Notes: a model not told the origin generated them from the sequence alone. Shown: positions 21,030 through 30,602, counted from the stretch's first letter. The stretch: DNA of 31,582 bases from a virus (IMGVR_UViG_3300047546_001003:1-31582); one strand, 5' to 3'. Made by a program: numbers and translations.

Positions 21030-23888
21030 TTATTTTTTCTTTTTCTCTCCTGATACAGGATTTTTTAATGCTGTCTGAGCTTTTAGTAGTTCAACTCTTT
21101 CTTTAGCATCAATTTGTTTTTCTTTCAATCTTAACTCCTCTGATTTAATATCACTATCTCTCAAAGATTGTTCTTTTCTGATATTTAAATCCTTTTGTTT
21201 CATATCAAGTTCCTTCATCATCTTAGTATAGTCTTGATTAAATCTACCAATTTCTAATGAATCAGGTGTAGCATTTGTGTTAACATCATTATTTTGAGCG
21301 TACTTCATTGAATTGATCTGAGCAATCATAATATCTTTCTTACGATCAAGATCATTTTGTTCTGCTTCAAATGCTAATTTTTGATCTGCAATTTGTTTTT
21401 GTAATTCAACCTGTTGTTGAGCAATTTGTTTTTGTTGCTCTAACTGCTGTTGTTGCATTTGTTGTTGTTGAGCTTGTTGCTCTTCTTTCTTCTCCATATC
21501 ACCTTTCAAGAACTCTCTAATATCAGAAACAGATTGAGAGGTTTGAATCATAGTAGTATAATATGGATGAAGTTGATTTTGTGCATATGCCATAGACAAT
21601 TGTCTAATCTCTTCTAGTTTTCTCTTATCATCAGAACGATTAGTAACAAAGATTTGTAAATCTTTCATTTTTAATTCTTCACCATTAATTGTAAAAAATA
21701 CATCATGCATTTCATTATTAACATAATTAATAATACTTAATGGTTTAGTAGATTCTACAAGTTGAGCAGTATCAATAAGTTGTTGGTATACAAGGTTCAT
21801 GATTTGCTCATGTGTTGTAGTAATAGGTTCTGTTTGAGCAAATGATTGTGAGAGAGATTGATTAATACCAGTAGCAGTTTCACTAGCTACAGTAGTACCC
21901 ATACGTTGTGGGCTGAAACCTAACAACTCCCAACATTGTTGTTTAGCCCAAGTAGCTAATGAGATACGAGATTGAATCTCTTGTGTACGTGTAAGGTCTA
22001 AACGAGTGTATTGATTAAATGTACTTTGACCTTTTGTATTTTCAGGTGAATCATCAAGACCTACAACACCACTCTCTTTAGCAAGTGTGGTCATCTTATC
22101 CAAAGCATCCTCATCTGTCATATCTTTATACTTTGGTAAGTGTCTAAGATTGTATAACACTGCTACCCCCACCTCTTTTTCAAGTAGAAGATAAAGTTGA
22201 TTCAAACAAATGTTATATACAATCTGATACACTTTCATTTGATCTACCATTGATTTAGGTAGAGTGTTCTTAGATTTATAGAATCCACCAATAATAGGTG
22301 GTAAGTCAGTATGATACAAAGGTTCAATATGATATACAGCTTGACCAATTCTATATCCTTTATACCAACAATTAATATACTCCCATTCAATATTTATATC
22401 ACTGTCGTTCTTATCGTATTCAAATCTTTCATCAATAATTTTAATTTGTTCTTGACCATCTTCATCAATGTAAGTGAGACGACCAATCTTCCTTTTACCT
22501 TTAAAATACCCCATTACCACAGTAAATCTATGATTACGTGTGTCGTACCCTAAGTATCCATAAGGTGAGTATCTAGTACCAGTGGGGTCATAAGAGTCAA
22601 GCAACTGGTGTTGTTCTAGTTCAGAACGTAGAGTTGCTTCATATTGTGTACGTAATGGATTGTGTTGTGGGTACGTAATGGATGAATAACCAGTCTTTTG
22701 AGTTTCAAAAATGTTTACATCCGCATTTGGATTCTTAACATAATCATCTCTGTGCTCACGTAAGTATTCCACTTCTTCTTCTGTAAGATCAAATTTTTCA
22801 ATAATCTTAGAAATTTCCATTGATTGAATGTAACCAATAGCATAGCAATCAGTGGTATACACTGGATCAGGTTCTGTAAGGAACCAAACTCTCACAGGGT
22901 TAAGTACTTCATAGTTCATCCCCATCTTATCTTTAGAAGTATAGATGTGGTGAAACTCTCTAGCTGTAATTAACAAATCTCTAAATGCATCCTCTGATTT
23001 ATCACGAACATTAAAATAATGTTTTAATTGATCAAGTTTAAGATTAGCCCATTGTTCAGCAGTAGATTGATATGTTTTAGATTTGTATCTATCAATATCA
23101 GAGGGTTTAAATCCTTCTATAGCAGAATCAATTTGTTTAATTTGCTCATTTACTTGTTGAAGTTGTTGTTGTAATTCTTGAATCTGCTTAGTTACACTTT
23201 CTTGTGTAACTTGTTGATTAGATTCAGCTTCTTGTGGTTGACTTTCCTCAATATCAGGATTTTCCTCTTTAAATATTTGATTTGCTTCTTCTGATTCAGG
23301 GGATTGAAACTTTTGTAATGTAGCAACGGCATTTTTTATTTGTCCAAATAACTCTTCAATTTGTTTACTTAGTTGTTCTTTCTGTTCAACTAAACCTAAC
23401 CTTGTTGCTTTTTGCATAATTATCTCTTCAATTCTTTTAAGATATAATTCTTGCAACAAATCATTTTTAGCTCTAATGTATTCATTATACGAATAATCAT
23501 CAATAGCTTTAAACCTAACATTATCAGGACGTTTAGTAATCTCACCAATCAAAGTATTGAGTGGGGGGTTCATCATTGGATAATGTTTAATATAATCAGG
23601 TAATTCCACTGATGTAGATTCATCTAAGAATTCTACAAGGTGTTCATAGTCAGGGGTAAAGTAATCTTCTTTTACTAAGATACCATTAATCAAATCATAG
23701 TTCTTCTTCATTGACTGATTGGTCCAGTACTGAGAGTATGCAATGTTTGCATAGTAGTCCATAGTACTCTTGATCCAATCAGAGGATTCTTTTTCTTTCA
23801 GAGGTAGAAAGTGATCAGGTACAAACAGTTCATAGTTATCAACTATGTTTGTAAACCTATCTCTGTTTTTAATTTTTTTAATGATCAT
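21030..23888 (-). CDS. Portal protein with Gln-rich coiled-coil extensions
   Basis: This 952-residue protein starts in an ATGA overlap with the TerL stop. The N-terminal wing region contains DYYANIAYSQYWTNQSMKKN and MNPPLNTLIGEITKRPDNV, typical of crAss-like portals. The stem/crown part has QRMGTTVASETATGINQSLS and THEQIMNLVYQQLIDTAQLV. There are two long Q-rich coiled coils: about 170-265 (with IQELQQQLQQVNEQIKQID) and about 810-940 (QAQQQQMQQQQLEQQ and following), the latter ending in KKKK. Most portals have 450-800 residues, so the size is due to these insertions. It forms the dodecameric DNA channel at the packaging vertex and interacts with TerL. Confidence 0.8.
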   Translation of the reverse strand: MIIKKIKNRDRFTNIVDNYELFVPDHFLPLKEKESSDWIKSTMDYYANIAYSQYWTNQSMKKNYDLINGILVKEDYFTPDYEHLVEFLDESTSVELPDYIKHYPMMNPPLNTLIGEITKRPDNVRFKAIDDYSYNEYIRAKNDLLQELYLKRIEEIIMQKATRLGLVEQKEQLSKQIEELFGQIKNAVATLQKFQSPESEEANQIFKEENPDIEESQPQEAESNQQVTQESVTKQIQELQQQLQQVNEQIKQIDSAIEGFKPSDIDRYKSKTYQSTAEQWANLKLDQLKHYFNVRDKSEDAFRDLLITAREFHHIYTSKDKMGMNYEVLNPVRVWFLTEPDPVYTTDCYAIGYIQSMEISKIIEKFDLTEEEVEYLREHRDDYVKNPNADVNIFETQKTGYSSITYPQHNPLRTQYEATLRSELEQHQLLDSYDPTGTRYSPYGYLGYDTRNHRFTVVMGYFKGKRKIGRLTYIDEDGQEQIKIIDERFEYDKNDSDINIEWEYINCWYKGYRIGQAVYHIEPLYHTDLPPIIGGFYKSKNTLPKSMVDQMKVYQIVYNICLNQLYLLLEKEVGVAVLYNLRHLPKYKDMTDEDALDKMTTLAKESGVVGLDDSPENTKGQSTFNQYTRLDLTRTQEIQSRISLATWAKQQCWELLGFSPQRMGTTVASETATGINQSLSQSFAQTEPITTTHEQIMNLVYQQLIDTAQLVESTKPLSIINYVNNEMHDVFFTINGEELKMKDLQIFVTNRSDDKRKLEEIRQLSMAYAQNQLHPYYTTMIQTSQSVSDIREFLKGDMEKKEEQQAQQQQMQQQQLEQQKQIAQQQVELQKQIADQKLAFEAEQNDLDRKKDIMIAQINSMKYAQNNDVNTNATPDSLEIGRFNQDYTKMMKELDMKQKDLNIRKEQSLRDSDIKSEELRLKEKQIDAKERVELLKAQTALKNPVSGEKKKK

Positions 23889-25975
23889 CGGAAGTGAGTA
23901 AATTTAAGTTCTCTGAAATGACCTTTATGTTTTCCAAAGTGACCATGCCTACTAAGTTTTGCTTTTTTATAAACTCCCTCATATAGACTAGCGTGTGCAC
24001 TATCACCTGGAACTACAGTACGAGCCATACCATTTGAATATGCTAAGGTAATACCATAAGCTCTAATTCTATCAAAGTTTCCCCCTCGTCTATAATTCAG
24101 CATTTCCTTCAATAGCATGATATCTTTAATTCTTTCTATACCATACTTAACAGATTTGACATTACCATCATCATCATATTCCTTACCTATCTCTTCGGTG
24201 CAATACTTAATAATAGAATTATCAAAAAACTCAATATTCTTTTGAGTGGCTCTAATTCCATAATCTGTCGAAATAGACGTGTTTGGCGCAATCTCTTTGA
24301 TCCAATGAGGAGTTTTAGCAAGATACTGATGTAGATTATTACGGAGAAGATAACTAATATAATCGTGAACATCATTCTCAATAAGGGCTGTAGCATTGTA
24401 ATATACAAGTAGTTTAGTAACATTTTCGTACCACTCTTCAAGTGAAGCAGGTCTACCAGTGTAGCAAGCAACCATACTATCAGCGTGTTGATCATCCATA
24501 CCATTAACTTGTTTATGAATATATACACTACCTAAAGAGTCTGAGAATTTAGCCTGGTCAAACTTATAGGGGTCAATACCTGCTACATACAATCCATACG
24601 GAGGATCATCCATAACAGGATGTTCAAATATCTGTATCACTCCTTCTTTCTCTGAATCATTCCTTACAGGAAAATCATGTACAGGTTTGCGTTCTGAGAA
24701 AGTCCATTCTAGGAATCCATCATCATTATAAACTAAATCAGAGGGGATACCATGATAGTTTAGATCTTCTAGTTTTTGAAGTTGTTTCTTAATAAGGTGA
24801 ACTGGGAACTTGTTAACCTCTCTAACTTGGAATGCTTCATCGAGGGATAATGGTTCTTGTGTGACAGCCAGTACGTAATCTTTTGGAGATTTTTTTCTAG
24901 CTGCCTCTCTTTTCTCCTTGATACGTTTAGTAGCTCCGAGCACATCTGAGTTTCCTTCTTCGTCAATGTATCCTTTATACGACCAACTCGCTGGATGGAA
25001 AAACCCACATGTTGTATTCTGTTTCCCTTCATCAAAAATGTTTTTAAATTCTGCGAATCCATATTCTCTTGGTTGATAACATATTTTCTCAAGATCTGCA
25101 CAGTCTTTCATTTCACCTACAGATCCAGTAGCAATGATTTGACCAGTTACATAATCACCATCCATACATGCTGGTCTCACGTATTCTATAGTCTTAAGTA
25201 AGGTGGGAGCAAGTCCAGGTTCTTCATAAAAGAAGATTGACACTGCACCCCCTACCCCTTTTGATGGATTATCTTTAAGTGTAACTTTGTGTAGTTCAGA
25301 CATATAGCCATCCCAATACACTTTACCATAATCATCTTTTTCTTGGAATTGAGCTTTCCAGAAATCTTTAGTATATGGGTTTTTGTTTTTATGCCAAGGT
25401 GTAAACTTATCTAAGTGCCTAGCATTAGTTTCAATCATCTCCCAAGTTTTGTCAGCTTTATCACCAACAAATGCTCCAACATAACAAATGGAGTATGGTT
25501 CAAAATAAAACTTCTTGGTAAGTAGGGCACCATTCTTTAGTGAGTATCCTCTCTGACGAGCCTTAGTACCACCAAAGTGTAACCCTCTAATCTTTGCCTT
25601 TTCCACTTCTATAAAGTAGTAGGCATCACTATCCCAAAAATCAGGGGCTATTGATTTTCTTTGTTGTTTGTTGTAAATGAGAGAATAGTTAAGATAGTAG
25701 TACATATCACCACAAATGTAGTGACCATCTGAGTTAACCATTCCATTTTCAATCTTATACTCCTCCTCATCCCAAAACTGTTCGTATGCAGGAGAACCAT
25801 ATACGTATGGGCAATATGTTCCATATTCTAAAAAATAATTTACTGCCTCTTTAAATTCTTTTGTCTTTGACCAGATGTAATTACCTGGTGTATAGTCTAT
25901 ATTAAAATACTTTGAGAGCAAGGGGAACTTGCTCTCATCAGTACAGGGGTCTATTTCTTCTTGATATATTTGCAT
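23885..25975 (-). CDS. terL: Terminase large subunit (ATPase and nuclease)
   Basis: This 696-residue protein has a Walker A-like GGTKARQRGYS (about 135-145), Walker B with catalytic acid VSIFFYEE (about 245-252) and coupling motif ATGS (282-285). The C-terminal nuclease part includes AGIDPYKFD (D468) and ALIENDV (E533), with a late D-S-A-H acidic/histidine site (PGDSAHASLYEG). The Walker A deviates from GxxGxGK, as is common in terminases. It cuts concatemeric DNA and drives it through the portal. About 50 extra N-terminal residues rich in Tyr (YICGDMYYYLNYSLIYN near 86-102) are a trait I associate with crAss-like and other large Bacteroidota-phage TerL proteins. No separate small subunit is obvious; the gene two positions upstream (26427-26963) is a candidate. 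Confidence 0.9.
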   Translation of the reverse strand: MQIYQEEIDPCTDESKFPLLSKYFNIDYTPGNYIWSKTKEFKEAVNYFLEYGTYCPYVYGSPAYEQFWDEEEYKIENGMVNSDGHYICGDMYYYLNYSLIYNKQQRKSIAPDFWDSDAYYFIEVEKAKIRGLHFGGTKARQRGYSLKNGALLTKKFYFEPYSICYVGAFVGDKADKTWEMIETNARHLDKFTPWHKNKNPYTKDFWKAQFQEKDDYGKVYWDGYMSELHKVTLKDNPSKGVGGAVSIFFYEEPGLAPTLLKTIEYVRPACMDGDYVTGQIIATGSVGEMKDCADLEKICYQPREYGFAEFKNIFDEGKQNTTCGFFHPASWSYKGYIDEEGNSDVLGATKRIKEKREAARKKSPKDYVLAVTQEPLSLDEAFQVREVNKFPVHLIKKQLQKLEDLNYHGIPSDLVYNDDGFLEWTFSERKPVHDFPVRNDSEKEGVIQIFEHPVMDDPPYGLYVAGIDPYKFDQAKFSDSLGSVYIHKQVNGMDDQHADSMVACYTGRPASLEEWYENVTKLLVYYNATALIENDVHDYISYLLRNNLHQYLAKTPHWIKEIAPNTSISTDYGIRATQKNIEFFDNSIIKYCTEEIGKEYDDDGNVKSVKYGIERIKDIMLLKEMLNYRRGGNFDRIRAYGITLAYSNGMARTVVPGDSAHASLYEGVYKKAKLSRHGHFGKHKGHFRELKFTHFR

Positions 25976-25976
25976 A

Positions 25977-26420
25977 TTATTTCAAGTTCTCTAACTTATA
26001 GATAGTTCTATCAATCAAAGCAACGATTTCATCAATAATATTTTGGATATGAGAGCAATCACATACATCTCTTCTGTGTTGTTCAACATACTCTCTACAT
26101 CCTTTAACTAATGTAAGAGCATCTACATATGTGGATCCAGGAATAGTAATTGGGATGATACCATTCATACCTTGATACACTTCAATAAGTTCATCTGTTT
26201 TGTCAAGTAATCCATCATAGAAATCACCTAATGCACTATGTGCAGCAAATGCACCTAGTCCACTAACACGTAGGTGAGCTAAATGAGCTTGATCTCTTAC
26301 AGAAAATAAGTATCCAAAAAAGGAAGAAGCACCTGAATGATCTTCAGATTTTGGCATACCCATTGAAATAGGTTTTGAAAAAAGTGGCTTGGAAGAATCC
26401 AAGAATGATGATTTGGCCAT
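25977..26420 (-). CDS. Ferritin/Dps-like four-helix protein
   Basis: This 147-residue protein is mostly helical after a Ser/Pro-rich N-terminal tail. The core has AHLAHLRVSGLGAFAAHSA, then GDFYDGLLDKTDELIEVYQG, and a C-terminal helix pair with CDCSHIQNIIDEIVALIDR. The H49-x11-H61 pair followed by D66, D73, D76, E77 and E80 is reminiscent of the ferroxidase ligands of Dps proteins, though the first acid is one residue further than in Dps. Phages often encode uncharacterised proteins of this type (H-x-A-L-G-x-F-Y-x-x-x-x-D-x-x-D-x-L-x-E-x-Y-Q-G) just before terminase. Iron binding or DNA protection is inferred; a structural four-helix protein without metal is possible. Confidence 0.5.
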   Translation of the reverse strand: MAKSSFLDSSKPLFSKPISMGMPKSEDHSGASSFFGYLFSVRDQAHLAHLRVSGLGAFAAHSALGDFYDGLLDKTDELIEVYQGMNGIIPITIPGSTYVDALTLVKGCREYVEQHRRDVCDCSHIQNIIDEIVALIDRTIYKLENLK

Positions 26421-26426
26421 GATATA

Positions 26427-26963
26427 TTATTTTTTATTTGGTCTCTCTCTATTTGATACGAATCTATTACCTCGTACTTGCGATTGTGCAATCTCTTGTT
26501 CTACTACATCTTTAAGGTCTTTCAGTGACTTCACTGCACTACCTAATGCTGCTAAGTTCTTCATTGCATTAGTTGCCTTTTTGTCAGAGTCACTATCCTC
26601 ATCATATGCATTAAACTGTACCTCTGTAAAGTACTCTGCTAATTTGTCTACTAGTTTAAATGCACTCTGATACAACCTCATGGATGGTGTCTCTTGTAAT
26701 ACCTCGTATTTCTTAATAGCAGCTAAGATAAGGGGATCATCTGGAGAAAACAAATTATTAGGACAGAAATCTTTTAAACATTGTACTTTTCTATCTATTT
26801 CAGAGAGATTACTATAACCTAAAGCTTTGAAATCTATTAGATGGTATATATAAGCAAAGACAAACAATGATTTGTCTTTCCATTTTTTGTGTACTGCATT
26901 ATACTCTGGTACTAACAGGATTTCTTGATCAATACTAACCTGTCCTTTATTTACATGAAACAT
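26427..26963 (-). CDS. Conserved pre-terminase protein; possible small terminase subunit
   Basis: This 178-residue protein begins with a strand-rich region (VSIDQEILLVPEYNAVHKKW) followed by VFAYIYHLIDFKALGYSN. It then has mainly helices, including SMRLYQSAFKLVDKLAEYF and LKDLKDVVEQEIAQSQVRG, and a basic tail RFVSNRERPNKK. The pattern L-L-V-P-E-x-x-x-x-x-x-x-x-D-K-S-x-x-x-x-A-Y-I-Y-x-x-x-D is familiar from proteins encoded close to terminase in many Bacteroidota phages; none has a function I know. Its place two genes before TerL, helical content and basic tail make a small-terminase role conceivable but unproven. Confidence 0.5.
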   Translation of the reverse strand: MFHVNKGQVSIDQEILLVPEYNAVHKKWKDKSLFVFAYIYHLIDFKALGYSNLSEIDRKVQCLKDFCPNNLFSPDDPLILAAIKKYEVLQETPSMRLYQSAFKLVDKLAEYFTEVQFNAYDEDSDSDKKATNAMKNLAALGSAVKSLKDLKDVVEQEIAQSQVRGNRFVSNRERPNKK

Positions 26964-26972
26964 AGATTGTTT

Positions 26973-27194
26973 TTAATATTCTCCTACATCATCCCAGTCA
27001 ACGTTGTCATCCAACCCTCCTGAGAATGATAGTCCTTCTTCATACTTTTGAAGTGCTTCTAATAAAGTTTTATCATTATACTTCATTAGTGGTTCTTCAT
27101 CTGTTGCCAAAGCAATATGCCTAGCAATTGGATACTCTGGGTAATACTGCATTAAATTCTGGAGTATTTGTAAGATTTCGTATTGTGTATCCAT
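26973..27194 (-). CDS. Small acidic hypothetical protein
   Basis: This 73-residue protein has an N-terminal helix pair (QYEILQILQNLMQYYPEYPIA) and a strongly acidic C-terminus (GGLDDNVDWDDVGEY). The start shares one base with the preceding stop (TAATG). It is the only acidic protein in the run of small basic proteins. No family recognised. Confidence 0.45.
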   Translation of the reverse strand: MDTQYEILQILQNLMQYYPEYPIARHIALATDEEPLMKYNDKTLLEALQKYEEGLSFSGGLDDNVDWDDVGEY

Positions 27195-27430
27195 TATCTA
27201 TACGATTTAACTTTTGATGCAATCTTTTTTGGTTGTGGAACAAATTGCTTACCCTTTGCATTCCCTTTTGCTTTAGCAGCATTAGTTGCAGCTTTCTCAC
27301 CAGGAGAGAGTGCCTTCCATGCAGCATCTGGTAAATACCTCTTTTTACCTTTAGAGGGTTTACCATCACTAGTCCTCCATTTCTGTGAGGTCCAGTTCTT
27401 AAGAGATTGTTGGGATTTAGCTAGTGCCAT
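27194..27430 (-). CDS. Small basic protein of a widespread phage family
   Basis: This 78-residue, Lys-rich protein has the pattern SLKNWTSQKWRTSDGKPSKG (9-28), then RYLPDAAWKALSPGEKAATN and GKQFVPQPKKIASK. I recognise W-x-x-x-x-W-R-T-x-D-G-K-P-S and R-Y-L-P-x-x-A-W as features of tiny proteins found in many phages, including cyanophages, without known role. It is coupled by one-base overlaps to both neighbours. Positively charged, so DNA binding or presence in the virion head is possible. Confidence 0.55.
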   Translation of the reverse strand: MALAKSQQSLKNWTSQKWRTSDGKPSKGKKRYLPDAAWKALSPGEKAATNAAKAKGNAKGKQFVPQPKKIASKVKSYR

Positions 27431-27567
27431 TATTTTTTCTTTGTTTTTTTATGAGCAAAATCTTTCATAATTCTACCATCAGGCATTTTGTGATATCCTT
27501 TAGGAATGCTGCCTGACTTTTTCATTGATACAGCAATAGCAGCTTGCTGTGCTTTACTTTTTGCCAT
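27430..27567 (-). CDS. 45-residue Lys-rich protein
   Basis: This frame was found by direct translation between two small basic genes. The ATG at 27567 overlaps the upstream gene by 14 bases, and the TAA shares one base with the next ATG. The protein starts MAKSKAQQAAIAVSMKKSG and ends HKKTKKK, with 13 Lys/Arg and two acidic residues. The K-x-Q-Q-x-A-x-x-x-x-M-K-K pattern is recurrent in tiny phage proteins. Function unknown; probably nucleic-acid contact. Confidence 0.55.
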   Translation of the reverse strand: MAKSKAQQAAIAVSMKKSGSIPKGYHKMPDGRIMKDFAHKKTKKK

Positions 27568-27787
27568 TTGACTTAGTTTTATAAGGGTTTTCTTTATGCC
27601 ACTTCTTAGTTGCAGCTACACCTTGTTTTACTGTTTTAGCTCCTGCTTTTTGTGTGAGGTTAATAGTATCCCATTTACCTTTATCCTTAGTAGGATGGTT
27701 TACCATAATATCACCAGGTTTACCTTTACCAATCTTGTTGGTCTTTTTGTAAACTTTGTGTTTTTCACCACCAGCAGAGAACTTCAT
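27554..27787 (-). CDS. Small basic protein with conserved C-terminal KAGAKTVKQGVAATKKWHKENP-type motif
   Basis: This 77-residue basic protein has an N-terminal FSAGGEKHKVYKKTN, then GDIMVNHPTKDKGKWDTINL and TQKAGAKTVKQGVAATKKWH (about 45-64). The last motif is one I recognise from small proteins of large phages. The start overlaps the previous stop by one base (TAATG). The protein is probably DNA- or capsid-associated, by charge and context only. Confidence 0.55.
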   Translation of the reverse strand: MKFSAGGEKHKVYKKTNKIGKGKPGDIMVNHPTKDKGKWDTINLTQKAGAKTVKQGVAATKKWHKENPYKTKSNGKK

Positions 27788-27966
27788 TACTTGTACCCTC
27801 CACCTTTAGCTTTGTACTCTCTAGCAAGCATTTGAGCTTTACGTGCTGACCATTCACCAGGATCTCCTCCTTTTGAACCAGCTTTAATTTTGTTAAACAA
27901 ACTTTTCCTCATACTAGGTTTAGTATAATTTCCAGCTGCATTAACTTTTGATTTTTTTGTTGTCAT
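27787..27966 (-). CDS. 59-residue basic protein (SKGGxPGxWSARKAQ family)
   Basis: This frame was found by translation of the gap after the holin gene. The ATG at 27966 overlaps the holin stop as ATGA, and the stop shares a base with the next start. The protein contains NYTKPSMRKSLFNKIKAGSK and GGDPGEWSARKAQMLAREYK and ends KGGGYK. The motif [KR]-x-x-I-x-A-G-S-K-G-G-x-P-G-x-W-S-A-R-K-A-Q is a widely distributed domain in phages, large DNA viruses and some bacteria. It is uncharacterised as far as I know. I am confident in the gene because of this motif. Confidence 0.75.
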   Translation of the reverse strand: MTTKKSKVNAAGNYTKPSMRKSLFNKIKAGSKGGDPGEWSARKAQMLAREYKAKGGGYK

Positions 27967-28355
27967 GGTTTTGTTTCAGATTCTTGTGGTCTTCTAATTC
28001 TTTTCATCATTGTTTCATAGATACTATACCCAAAAAGTAATTTAAAACTCTCATCAATACTTTTTCCTTCTACCATAGCTATTACACCTACAGCAAGTTT
28101 ACTTAAAGGTACACTTTTATCTAACACATACACTTCAACAAGGAAAGAGAGAAGAATAGCAATGTTATATAGTAACAATTTAGGGATGATGTTAGACATC
28201 TTCCTAGAAGTGATTGCCACCCCAGTTCTATGACATCTCCAAATTGCGAATATAAAATCTGATACAATTAACAGAGATGCAGTAATGAACAAAGGAGTGG
28301 CTGGAGCTAGTGCTGCAGCCGATGCAAGCAGTAGACCAATTACCCAGTCTTTCAT
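27963..28355 (-). CDS. Holin (phage holin-family membrane protein)
   Basis: This 130-residue protein has three clear membrane segments: WVIGLLLASAAALAPATPLF (about 4-23), TASLLIVSDFIFAIW (about 25-39) and LLLYNIAILLSFLVEVYVL (about 60-78). A weaker fourth (LAVGVIAMVEG) may follow. The cytoplasmic connection RCHRTGVAITSRKMSNIIPK carries the G-x-x-I-[ST]-S-x-K-x motif of the Cph1/TcdE-type holin family. It would open the inner membrane for the endolysin encoded about 2 kb upstream. It is embedded among small basic-protein genes, with ATGA overlaps on both sides. Confidence 0.7.
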   Translation of the reverse strand: MKDWVIGLLLASAAALAPATPLFITASLLIVSDFIFAIWRCHRTGVAITSRKMSNIIPKLLLYNIAILLSFLVEVYVLDKSVPLSKLAVGVIAMVEGKSIDESFKLLFGYSIYETMMKRIRRPQESETKP

Positions 28356-28510
28356 CCCTTTACACGTTTAAGTCGAGGGTTAGCTTTTTTTGCAGCAGGA
28401 GAGGCCTTTCTTGTAGCAGAAGCAAGAATGGCACCAGCAGCTTTCTTGCTGATGCCTTGCTTCTTTGCGATAGAACTCTGAACTGCTTTAAATCCAGGGT
28501 GCTTTTTCAT
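28352..28510 (-). CDS. 52-residue basic protein without acidic residues
   Basis: This frame was found by translation upstream of the holin. The ATG at 28510 lies two bases after the previous stop, and the TGA overlaps the holin start as ATGA. The protein starts MKKHPGFKAVQSSIAKKQG and contains ISKKAAGAILASATRKASPA; 15 of its 52 residues are Lys or Arg and none are Asp or Glu. The sequence GFKAVQ-x-x-I-A-K-K-x-G-I-S-x-K-A-A-G-A-I-L-A is strongly conserved, in my memory, across many phages. The function is unknown and the charge points to nucleic acid binding. Confidence 0.75.
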   Translation of the reverse strand: MKKHPGFKAVQSSIAKKQGISKKAAGAILASATRKASPAAKKANPRLKRVKG

Positions 28511-28512
28511 GA

Positions 28513-28854
28513 TTAACAGGATTTACCGCCTTTACGCATAGTTGCTTTTCCACCCTTACGCATTGTAGGTTTTTTGATAGTATCTTTATAATCTTTTCCT
28601 ACAGTATCTTTATAATCTTTTCCTACAGGAGGTCCATACATCTTTGGTTGAGAGGAAATCTTTTTCATAATAGTATCTTTATGATCAATCCCCATTGATC
28701 CACCAACAACAGGTTTTCTAAGTGCTCCACCATCCATGTATTTATCCATGCCACCTTTTTTCATCATTGACATTGTAGGTTTTGCAGGACCTTTCTTAGG
28801 AGGAGTTGCTTTTTTAGGGGGCATTGCTTTCTTAGGTACAGGTTTCTTCATCAT
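28513..28854 (-). CDS. Repetitive Lys/Pro/Met-rich low-complexity protein
   Basis: This 113-residue protein consists of short repeats. The N-terminus has PKKAMPPKKATPPKKGPAKP, the middle has DHKDTIMKK followed by two GKDYKDT units, and the C-terminus has MRKGGK twice before SC. It is strongly basic and unlikely to fold as a globular protein. The start has the context TATAAAACA, identical to that of the MCP gene, which suggests efficient translation. A head-internal DNA-binding protein is the most natural guess. Confidence 0.5.
   Translation of the reverse strand: MMKKPVPKKAMPPKKATPPKKGPAKPTMSMMKKGGMDKYMDGGALRKPVVGGSMGIDHKDTIMKKISSQPKMYGPPVGKDYKDTVGKDYKDTIKKPTMRKGGKATMRKGGKSC
28581..28628. 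repeat. 24-bp perfect tandem duplication
   Basis: The 24-nt unit starting TATCTTTATAATC at 28581 is followed immediately by an identical copy at 28605. A partial third copy (TATCTTTATGATC) lies at 28674-28686. The unit is a multiple of three and encodes the GKDYKDT-type repeat of the low-complexity basic protein, so copy-number change keeps the frame. Confidence 0.9.
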
Positions 28855-28879
28855 TGTTTTATAGTTTATAGGGTTAAAA

Positions 28880-29149
28880 TTAGCAGTTCCATTTTCTCAA
28901 AGCCAATGCTTTTCTAGTGGGTTTACCATTAGGTTTTTTCATTGGTCCTTTCACTCCACTCATTCTAGCGCAAAAACTCTTTCTACGTTTAGCATCTTTA
29001 CTATTAGGGTCTAGTTTAGAAGGCTTAGTTGTAACAGCCATCTTTAACTTAGAACCAGGGTTAGCTGCTCTATAAGAGGCTACACCTTTTGCATTTAATC
29101 CACCTGATGCAGATTTACCTTCTTTGCGTGTCCAAGCTGGAGTTTTCAT
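28880..29149 (-). CDS. Small basic protein, DUF6321-like
   Basis: This 89-residue basic protein reads WTRKEGKSASGGLNAKGVAS, then YRAANPGSKLKMAVTTKPSK, KRRKSFCARMSGVKGPMKK and, at the C-terminus, ALRKWNC. The series W-T-R-K-E-G-K-x-x-x-G-G-L-N-x-K-G, L-K-x-A-V-T, R-R-x-S-F-C-A-R-M and L-R-K-W-N-C matches a very widespread phage family that I remember as DUF6321. It has no established function as far as I know. The cysteines in SFCARM and WNC are invariant in members I recall. It starts 9 bases after the GroES-like gene. Confidence 0.7.
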   Translation of the reverse strand: MKTPAWTRKEGKSASGGLNAKGVASYRAANPGSKLKMAVTTKPSKLDPNSKDAKRRKSFCARMSGVKGPMKKPNGKPTRKALALRKWNC

Positions 29150-29158
29150 AGATAAAAA

Positions 29159-29482
29159 TTAATCCTCCAAAACTAGGGAGATATTGTGAGCATTAGTCAT
29201 CACGTAACTAAGTTCTTTGTCACCATCTTTGATGGTAAATGGCTTGATGTACATAGGATCACCTAATCTTACTTTAGCACCAGCAATAACACCAGGGTAG
29301 CCATTAGCAGAAACAAGTGGTCCTACAGCAAACACAGTGTAGAGTCCAGAGTGCTCTTTATAAAAATCCTGAACTAAATTTTCTTTAGCAGATGCTGACA
29401 ATTCAATTTTAGAATTAGCCATTTTTTTCATGAACTCAGGTTGTTCAAGAATGACGATGTCATTTTGTGGGATTAACTTCAT
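29159..29482 (-). CDS. GroES-like (Hsp10/gp31-type) co-chaperonin candidate
   Basis: This 107-residue protein begins KLIPQNDIVILEQPE, as GroES begins with R-P-L-x-D-R-V-[IL]-V-x-x. It then has a loop with SKIELSASAK (24-33), whose I-E-L lies where GroES has the mobile-loop I-V-L triad that binds GroEL. Next come GLYTVFAVGPLV, a GAKVRLGD strand and a final AHNISLVLED, where GroES ends with N-x-x-x-D-I-L-A-x-V-E. Length and order of strands fit the Hsp10 fold. Phage Hsp10 proteins such as T4 gp31 replace host GroES to fold the large capsid protein, which would suit a phage with a big MCP. The identity between families is low, so the call is moderate. Confidence 0.55.
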   Translation of the reverse strand: MKLIPQNDIVILEQPEFMKKMANSKIELSASAKENLVQDFYKEHSGLYTVFAVGPLVSANGYPGVIAGAKVRLGDPMYIKPFTIKDGDKELSYVMTNAHNISLVLED

Positions 29483-29651: not shown

Positions 29652-29854
29652 TTATCATTAAGGTTTAACTCAATTGTACAATTCTTTGATAGTGTAACTT
29701 GATTAGAATCATAATGTCTAATCACACCATCCTTTTCATTTGCTACCACCCATATTGTATTAGCTTGTGGACCATAGTCTATAAGAAAAAGTACAATACC
29801 CATACCATGTGTGGTATTGACATACATTAATTGTTTTACCTCATGTATGATCAT
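29648..29854 (-). CDS. Small beta-rich hypothetical protein
   Basis: This 68-residue protein has YVNTTHGMGIVLFLIDYG (11-28) followed by TIWVVANEKDGVIRHYDSNQ. The H-G-x-G-x-V-x-x-[LI] start and the I-R-H-Y-D-S-N-Q end suggest a small SH3-like beta barrel, and I associate it with tiny conserved phage proteins. It starts in an ATGA overlap with the endolysin stop, so it is co-translated with the endolysin. Confidence 0.5.
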   Translation of the reverse strand: MIIHEVKQLMYVNTTHGMGIVLFLIDYGPQANTIWVVANEKDGVIRHYDSNQVTLSKNCTIELNLNDK

Positions 29855-30318
29855 GAACCTATTTCAAAGTGCATCCAATCGTAATTTTTCTCTCTGCCAA
29901 GCGAAATAAACCCATGCTTGTAAAAAATATCAATCATTGGCTTATATGCAGGTTTTGCGAATTGAGCAGTCTTTGAAGTGGCTTTAAGTGAGTTCCTTGC
30001 AGGGTCTAAATCAATAGCTATCCCCCATGCATGTTTAGACCAACTTGTTCCCCCCCTCATTTTTCTGAATGCAAAACATCCACCAAAAAGGTCGATACCT
30101 AACTTTTGAAGTTCAGGGAGACCATAGTGTGCAAGTAGATCATTAAACACTGCAGTGAAATTACTAGCAATAAGTTTGTGCACTCTAATTTTAGATACAG
30201 TGGTTTTAGTATCCCAAGCTAACCTCATAGGGTAAGGTAGCTGAATAGTAACTAAGTAATCAGAACCATCTTCATCTGGTTGTCCATACTTAGCAATAAC
30301 TTGATTTGTAGTTAACAT
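29851..30318 (-). CDS. Endolysin, peptidase M15 family (VanY/L-alanyl-D-glutamate or D,D-peptidase type)
   Basis: Read from the ATG at 30318 (two bases after the upstream stop) the protein has 155 residues; a longer start at 30357 would overlap the preceding gene and is less likely. It carries the M15 zinc site: SKHAWGIAIDLDPARN (H96 and D103) and DWMHFEI (D147 as base, H150 as third ligand). FRKMRGGTSWS just before the first motif is a typical lead-in. The enzyme cleaves peptidoglycan cross-bridges to release progeny. No signal peptide or cell-wall-binding domain is present, so it needs a holin, which is encoded about 2 kb downstream. Confidence 0.85.
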   Translation of the reverse strand: MLTTNQVIAKYGQPDEDGSDYLVTIQLPYPMRLAWDTKTTVSKIRVHKLIASNFTAVFNDLLAHYGLPELQKLGIDLFGGCFAFRKMRGGTSWSKHAWGIAIDLDPARNSLKATSKTAQFAKPAYKPMIDIFYKHGFISLGREKNYDWMHFEIGS

Positions 30319-30320
30319 AA

Positions 30321-30602
30321 TTATAAATTTACAGGTAACCAATATTGTCCAGGACATTCACAGTCCATACACATAGTTTTCTTTTCAATAAAACATCCAC
30401 ATCCTTCAAACTTAGTACCATTTAATGCAGTACCTCTTTTAGCAGGATCACAGACAGAGTTTGTCCTAATAGGACAAGTGAGGCAGATTGCTAATCTCTC
30501 TTCTGCCACTTGTTTCTTAGCAGGAGATAACAAACTTAATTTATCAAGCAAAGAGTTTGTCCACCCTTCACCTATTTGTCTAATCAATTTGGCTATCCTC
30601 AT
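30321..30602 (-). CDS. Cysteine-rich (zinc-binding) protein
   Basis: Read from the ATG at 30602 the protein has 93 residues; a start at 30632 would add 10 residues and enlarge the overlap with the upstream gene from 23 to 53 bases. It contains AICLTCPIRTNSVC, GCGCFIEKKTMC and MDCECPGQYW, eight cysteines in the second half (C40, C43, C51, C68, C70, C78, C81, C83). The pattern C-x-x-C-P...G-C-G-C...C-P-x-x-x-W is common in tiny phage proteins of unknown role and probably binds zinc. The N-terminal part is helical and basic. Confidence 0.6.
   Translation of the reverse strand: MRIAKLIRQIGEGWTNSLLDKLSLLSPAKKQVAEERLAICLTCPIRTNSVCDPAKRGTALNGTKFEGCGCFIEKKTMCMDCECPGQYWLPVNL

Follow-up and report, generated by a model that had tools for sequence, protein, structure and literature searches.

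Small, exchangeable basic proteins encoded near the packaging genes of a marine crAss-like phage as candidate head-internal proteins

Phage T4 produces several small, basic-rich internal proteins (IPI, IPII and IPIII) that are associated with its head. Some ten residues at the N-terminus target them to the prohead, and one of them, IPI, is an inhibitor of a type IV restriction enzyme (both PMC9026906). T4-like cyanophages encode another family relevant here, the DUF6321 proteins (T4-GC 119), in which this domain most often makes up the C-terminal end of a longer protein (89–994 aa) built from several small pieces, here called beads. The seven proteins described below (A, B, C, E, F, G and H) come from a virus record of 31.6 kb, and this whole stretch of DNA is referred to as the window. 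Like the T4 internal proteins, they are small, have a surplus of basic residues and occur several per phage. However, the T4 proteins are much less basic, their genes do not form a dense run beside the packaging genes as those of the window do, and no sequence relation was found between the two groups. The N-terminal capsid-targeting motif of the T4 proteins, which the prohead protease cleaves behind a Glu residue, was found in 0/7 window proteins. Protein A, which is a DUF6321 protein, stands alone, in contrast to its counterparts in T4-like cyanophages.

The window is a fragment of a marine crAss-like phage with 39 called genes. Its genes for the terminase, portal and major capsid protein have matches in crAss-like phage families, and the assignment is based on the terminase, which is approximately 30–33% identical to the closest gut crAss-like terminases. 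In the order of transcription, and all on the minus strand, the region encodes an endolysin-like peptidase of the M15 type (29851–30357), two small genes, a GroES-like protein of 107 aa that was recognized by eye and is without Pfam match (29159–29482, adjoining A), and then the genes A to K. A (28880–29149) has 89 aa and a net charge of +21; B (28513–28854; 113 aa) is Lys/Met/Pro-rich and ends in KGGKSC; C (28352–28510; 52 aa) contains GFKAVQxxIAKKxGIS; and D (27963–28355; 130 aa) is holin-like and not one of the basic beads. E (27787–27966; 59 aa; phrog_17747, E 2.4e-37) and H (27194–27430; 78 aa; phrog_14910, E 3.6e-37) correspond to the N- and C-terminal halves of a DUF5872-like protein, and between them lie F (27554–27787; 77 aa), with the motif KPGDIMVNHPTKDKGKWDTINLT, and G (27430–27567; 45 aa), which is bipartite and consists of QQAAIAVSMKK and GYHKMPDGRIMKDFAHKK. 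The genes I (26973–27194), J (26427–26963; 178 aa) and K (25977–26420; Dps-like/DUF5856; phrog_858, PF19174 55.3 bits) are followed by the crAss-type terminase large subunit gene (TerL, 23885–25975; phrog_6681, E 1.8e-105), which served as anchor, and by the portal gene. I is an acidic conserved protein of 73 aa (pI 4.1, net charge -12) that overlaps H by 1 base and is possibly a partner or neutralizer of the basic set. K immediately precedes TerL and is also found with the cassette in several further contigs; it is far more variable than its neighbours (58–99% identity, pN/pS 0.45) and was not found in some close relatives.

The 7 basic proteins (45–113 aa, pI 10.3–12.0, K+R 25–29%) occupy positions 27194–29149 and surround D. 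The combination of fewer than 120 aa, at least 24% K+R and a pI above 10 is found in these 7 of the 39 window genes and in no others, and they are confined to 8 consecutive genes (permutation p 1.5e-5), with a mean K+R content of 11% in the other genes of the window. A previous sequence-only reading of this DNA had described 7 small basic ORFs, one of them with 15 Lys/Arg and no acidic residue, and had quoted 3 motifs. All 7 ORFs were recovered on the minus strand with the sizes given, C indeed has 15 K/R and no D/E, and each motif is present literally. Its description of mostly 1- to 4-base overlaps is about right (1 base for H/I, H/G and F/E; 4 bases for E/D and D/C), with the exceptions of G/F, which overlap by 14 bases, and of C–B and B–A, which are separated by 2 and 25 bases. 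Two of its statements need qualification: the gene called a holin matches PF05105 with 21.3 bits, just under the Pfam cutoff of 22.2, and the cluster, said to lie just before the packaging genes, is near TerL but separated from it by I, J and K.

To assess selection, close relatives were collected by way of the terminase, and pooled pN/pS ratios were calculated against them. These ratios were 0.12 for C, 0.16 for E, 0.19 for F and H, and 0.23 for A, with 0.19 for TerL as the reference, and 0.34 for G and 0.56 for B, the last two from few sequences (for B, one relative). These values show clear purifying selection on A, C, E, F and H, and a weaker signal for G and B. Nearly all close relatives keep A, C, E and H. 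The presence of F and G is variable, both being missing in several close relatives, and B varies from 43 to 113 aa and retains only its general MMKK...KGGKSC character, so that the constancy of the set holds for part of it only. In one related locus (L010, 2345–2928), two other short hydrophobic-looking ORFs take the place of the holin-like gene that otherwise separates C from E, and the flanking beads are kept.

Relatives of these proteins were found well beyond crAss-like phages. A is a member of DUF6321 (PF19846, 83.4 bits against a cutoff of 28.5, covering profile positions 1–72 of 72); it matches 546 phage records and shares approximately 50–65% identity with proteins from pelagiphages, cyanophages and Methylophilales phages. 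E and H are 45–87% and 54–75% identical, respectively, to proteins from HMO-2011-type phages, MEP401/402 and others, and Zobellviridae are among the otherwise unrelated phages with relatives of A, E and H. Searching with the terminase, by contrast, yielded for the most part records of crAss-like phages and of Bacteroidota phages. When viral contigs were scanned for C, E, F and H, between 288 and approximately 600 relatives of each were confirmed, with invariant positions (501 of 598 candidate stretches confirmed for C; 288 relatives for F); in the named-phage collection, F had no relative and G a single short match only. After merging loci that share sequence, H occurred together with E in 62/63 (E-seeded) and 45/47 non-redundant loci, and A was present in 35/45 F-seeded loci. 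In the HMO-2011 phage (L013, 6389–7471), the relatives of E and H are separated by the gene for a methanesulfonate monooxygenase subunit, and in several contigs other than the window (L282, L298, L303, L305 and L311) a GroEL gene is located near F and E-H.

Linkage to head or packaging genes, the absence of which was one of the observations that the sequence-only reading had named as speaking against it, recurs in related and unrelated phages. Of the 115 non-redundant loci that reach 9 kb, a minimum of 64 carry a gene for capsid, portal or terminase no more than 6 kb away and in the same orientation, the number being a lower bound because only the large gene clusters were annotated. In MEP402, 4 tiny basic genes including A-E-H directly precede the terminase; in the T7-like phage P-SCSP1k, a DUF6321 gene directly follows the major capsid gene, and beads follow this gene in other crAss-like contigs as well. 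A fixed cassette order was ruled out, since A stands before or after E-H and the beads before TerL or after the major capsid gene, and such a cluster was not found before TerL in gut crAss phage cr125_1 or Flavobacterium phage FPSV-S29. The HMO-2011-type pelagiphage HTVC033P likewise has 7 consecutive tiny basic genes (gp36–gp42) that include relatives of A, E and H, although this phage is of an unrelated type and its other 4 beads differ; an amidase gene follows the cluster, and no terminase is annotated in the 10-kb stretch examined.

Several of these proteins are also found joined. Single-protein fusions were detected for E-H (14), F-G (5), G-A (3), F-A (2) and F-G-A (1), counts that include some ORFs identical between loci. 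In P-SSM7_194, one chain consists of a T4-like targeting sequence, a NIHAKRKR bead, a G bead and DUF6321; P-SCSP1k and HTVC033P encode the NIHAKRKR bead separately, by a mini-gene next to DUF6321, and the G bead also occurs inside P-HM1_110. Judged from their sequences, the pieces behave like beads that are either separate or joined on one chain. E and H are the two halves of one bacterial DUF5872-like protein and form a single protein in 79 of the best 80 bacterial loci. In contrast to these bacterial relatives, the window has E and H split into two genes with F and G between them, and lacks the GRSxM Rho_N-like tail that is present in 47/79 of the bacterial E-H fusions. Of 8 scanned, 1 scored above the Pfam Rho_N cutoff, and 7 of the 79 fusions carry an H1-like Ala/Lys-rich tail. 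Such tails point to contact with nucleic acids without proving it. The bacterial full-length relatives reach 20.3–27.2 bits against the PF19197 (DUF5872) cutoff of 27.5, and neither E and H alone nor the fused phage protein match this profile; E and H belong to a family related to DUF5872, and we do not file them as members. Fused E-H (L426–L505) occurs in many bacterial genomes, among them Sphingomonas, Roseomonas, Pseudomonas, Chlamydiae and Spirosoma.

Virion data are available for the DUF6321-bearing proteins of T4-like cyanophages, to which reported virion presence is limited. In most of these phages examined, the DUF6321 gene lies between gp16 and gp17; it is found there or, within the stretch displayed, directly after gp16 in ACG-2014f, ACG-2014e, Syn9, S-SZBM1, S-RSM4, P-HM1, P-TIM40, S-M1, S-SM1, S-CREM2 and S-SCSM1, and elsewhere in P-SSM7 and S-SSM7. 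Mass spectrometry of CsCl-purified virions identified S-CREM2 gp137, which carries DUF6321 (iE 5.3e-21; Pfam 40.8 bits), by 4 unique peptides (PMC10665884 Table 3); since coverage was 4.1% and peptide positions are not given, cleavage may have removed the DUF6321 end itself. S-SCSM1_29 (517 aa; DUF6321 iE 2.7e-33) is labelled 'virion protein' in a record in which TerS and TerL are without this label, and such labels seem to derive from a mass-spectrometric study of virions (PMC9602691). Head, neck and tail proteins of P-HM1, the virion cytidylyltransferase and the DUF6321 protein (T4-GC 119) bear the note 'similar to Synechococcus phage S-SM1 protein', which none of the replication genes shown has. 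This distribution suggests that the note marks the S-SM1 virion set, which would be a third case of DUF6321 in virions. S-SZBM1_192, a DUF6321 protein with a targeting-like sequence, is missing from the published list of 30 proteins detected in virions of its phage (PMC9146016), which is weak evidence because short Lys/Arg-rich proteins yield few usable tryptic peptides.

Some DUF6321 proteins begin like the T4 internal proteins (MKTYQEFIAE/MKTFKEFT in T4), namely those of P-SSM7 (MKTYSQFIEE), S-SZBM1 (MKTFKQYITE) and AG-345-E15 (MKTFEQFTE). A targeting score of at least 18 was reached by 11/55 DUF6321 ORFs, compared with 35/1151 among the remaining ORFs of these loci (Fisher p 2.5e-6). The score was built from T4 sequences only and repeats a regular-expression test that was shaped after some of the sequences had been seen; phylogenetic relatedness means that the ORFs are not independent of one another, and the background includes several matches that are neighbours in the same region. 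The majority of DUF6321 proteins are without a targeting-like sequence. A separate small protein family of T4-like cyanophages (MKSFKSFLSESVNISGDFNGNLY...; L415 3740–4057, L506 44215–44535, L423 3737–4063) is encoded next to the DUF6321 gene and has a strong T4-type targeting-like N-terminus.

The recurrence of the beads in unrelated phages and the presence of DUF6321 proteins in purified cyanophage particles lead us to favour, with a probability of roughly 50%, that the window encodes modular, exchangeable small basic proteins that reside with the DNA inside the head, as T4 internal proteins do. The 7 genes would be expressed late together with the head genes, and their products, including the crAss-like versions, would be taken into the phage head. 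Once there, they would bind and stay with the DNA, neutralizing its charge or compacting it, and would probably be delivered with it into the host, acting like the T4 proteins with each bead encoded by a separate tiny gene. Counting against this reading are the missing targeting motif in all 7 window proteins, S-SZBM1_192, the low coverage of S-CREM2 gp137, the failure to find a fold match for A and E-H, and the clusterless phages cr125_1 and FPSV-S29. A head-internal basic set was the first idea of the sequence-only reading and is now the best-supported one, being backed by the recurrence, the linkage to head and packaging genes, the fusions, the cyanophage virions and the N-termini resembling those of T4 internal proteins; that reading as a whole is partly supported. 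The beads could instead be head-borne proteins that act on the host after entry by blocking restriction or nucleases or by remodelling the nucleoid, with any compaction being incidental. The activity of T4 IPI, the different content of F, G and B among close relatives, as expected for host-facing genes, and the cellular E-H homologues with tails resembling nucleic-acid-binding domains fit this idea, which we nevertheless judge less likely: A, C, E and H are highly conserved over phages of very different hosts, unlike typical anti-defence proteins.

Proteins that bind nucleic acids only within the cell and are not virion components, whether they compact the host nucleoid, regulate late genes or serve as RNA chaperones, would also account for the Rho_N-like tails of the cellular homologues, for the failure to detect S-SZBM1_192 in virions and for the restriction of reported virion presence to DUF6321-bearing proteins. 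We consider this doubtful given the DUF6321 proteins reported from cyanophage virions, the T4-type targeting-like N-termini and the position of the genes within the head/packaging block. That the proteins are accessories of lysis, either holin regulators or cationic membrane-active peptides, is suggested by the holin-like gene inside the cluster and the M15 peptidase upstream, yet this seems very improbable, as beads accompany head genes in MEP402, P-SCSP1k and many crAss-like contigs, and L010 keeps its flanking beads after exchange of the holin-like gene. Least credible is that they are functionless Lys-rich ORFs of low complexity that arose by chance; the low complexity and variable length of B would agree with this, but it was ruled out for A, C, E, F and H by their pN/pS ratios (0.12–0.23) and conservation, including hundreds of relatives with invariant positions.

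More tentatively, the distribution of the head-internal candidates raises the possibility that unrelated aquatic phages (crAss-like, HMO-2011-type, Zobellviridae, and T7- and T4-like cyanophages) share a pool of exchanged beads, a histone-like toolkit for the capsid interior that may be partly common to bacterial chromosomal proteins and from which each phage would assemble mini-genes or strings on one chain. The libraries searched list DUF6321, phrog_17747 and phrog_14910 as of 'unknown function', even though hundreds of phage records contain DUF6321, and genes of this kind tend to escape ordinary gene calling and tryptic proteomics. The virion link and the fusions turn these anonymous mini-genes into a testable system of DNA-accompanying basic proteins passed between lineages.

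Database and structure searches gave little beyond these families. Apart from DUF6321, no significant Pfam match was obtained for the 7 basic proteins, and none matched NCBIfam. Neither profile nor fold searches gave a credible PDB match for A and E-H, nor did profile searches for C and F. The AF2 model of A has a pLDDT of 87.7 and the model of fused E-H one of 72. The DUF6321 model has a weak match (rank 29) to a BFVD entry with the name Ferritin/DPS.
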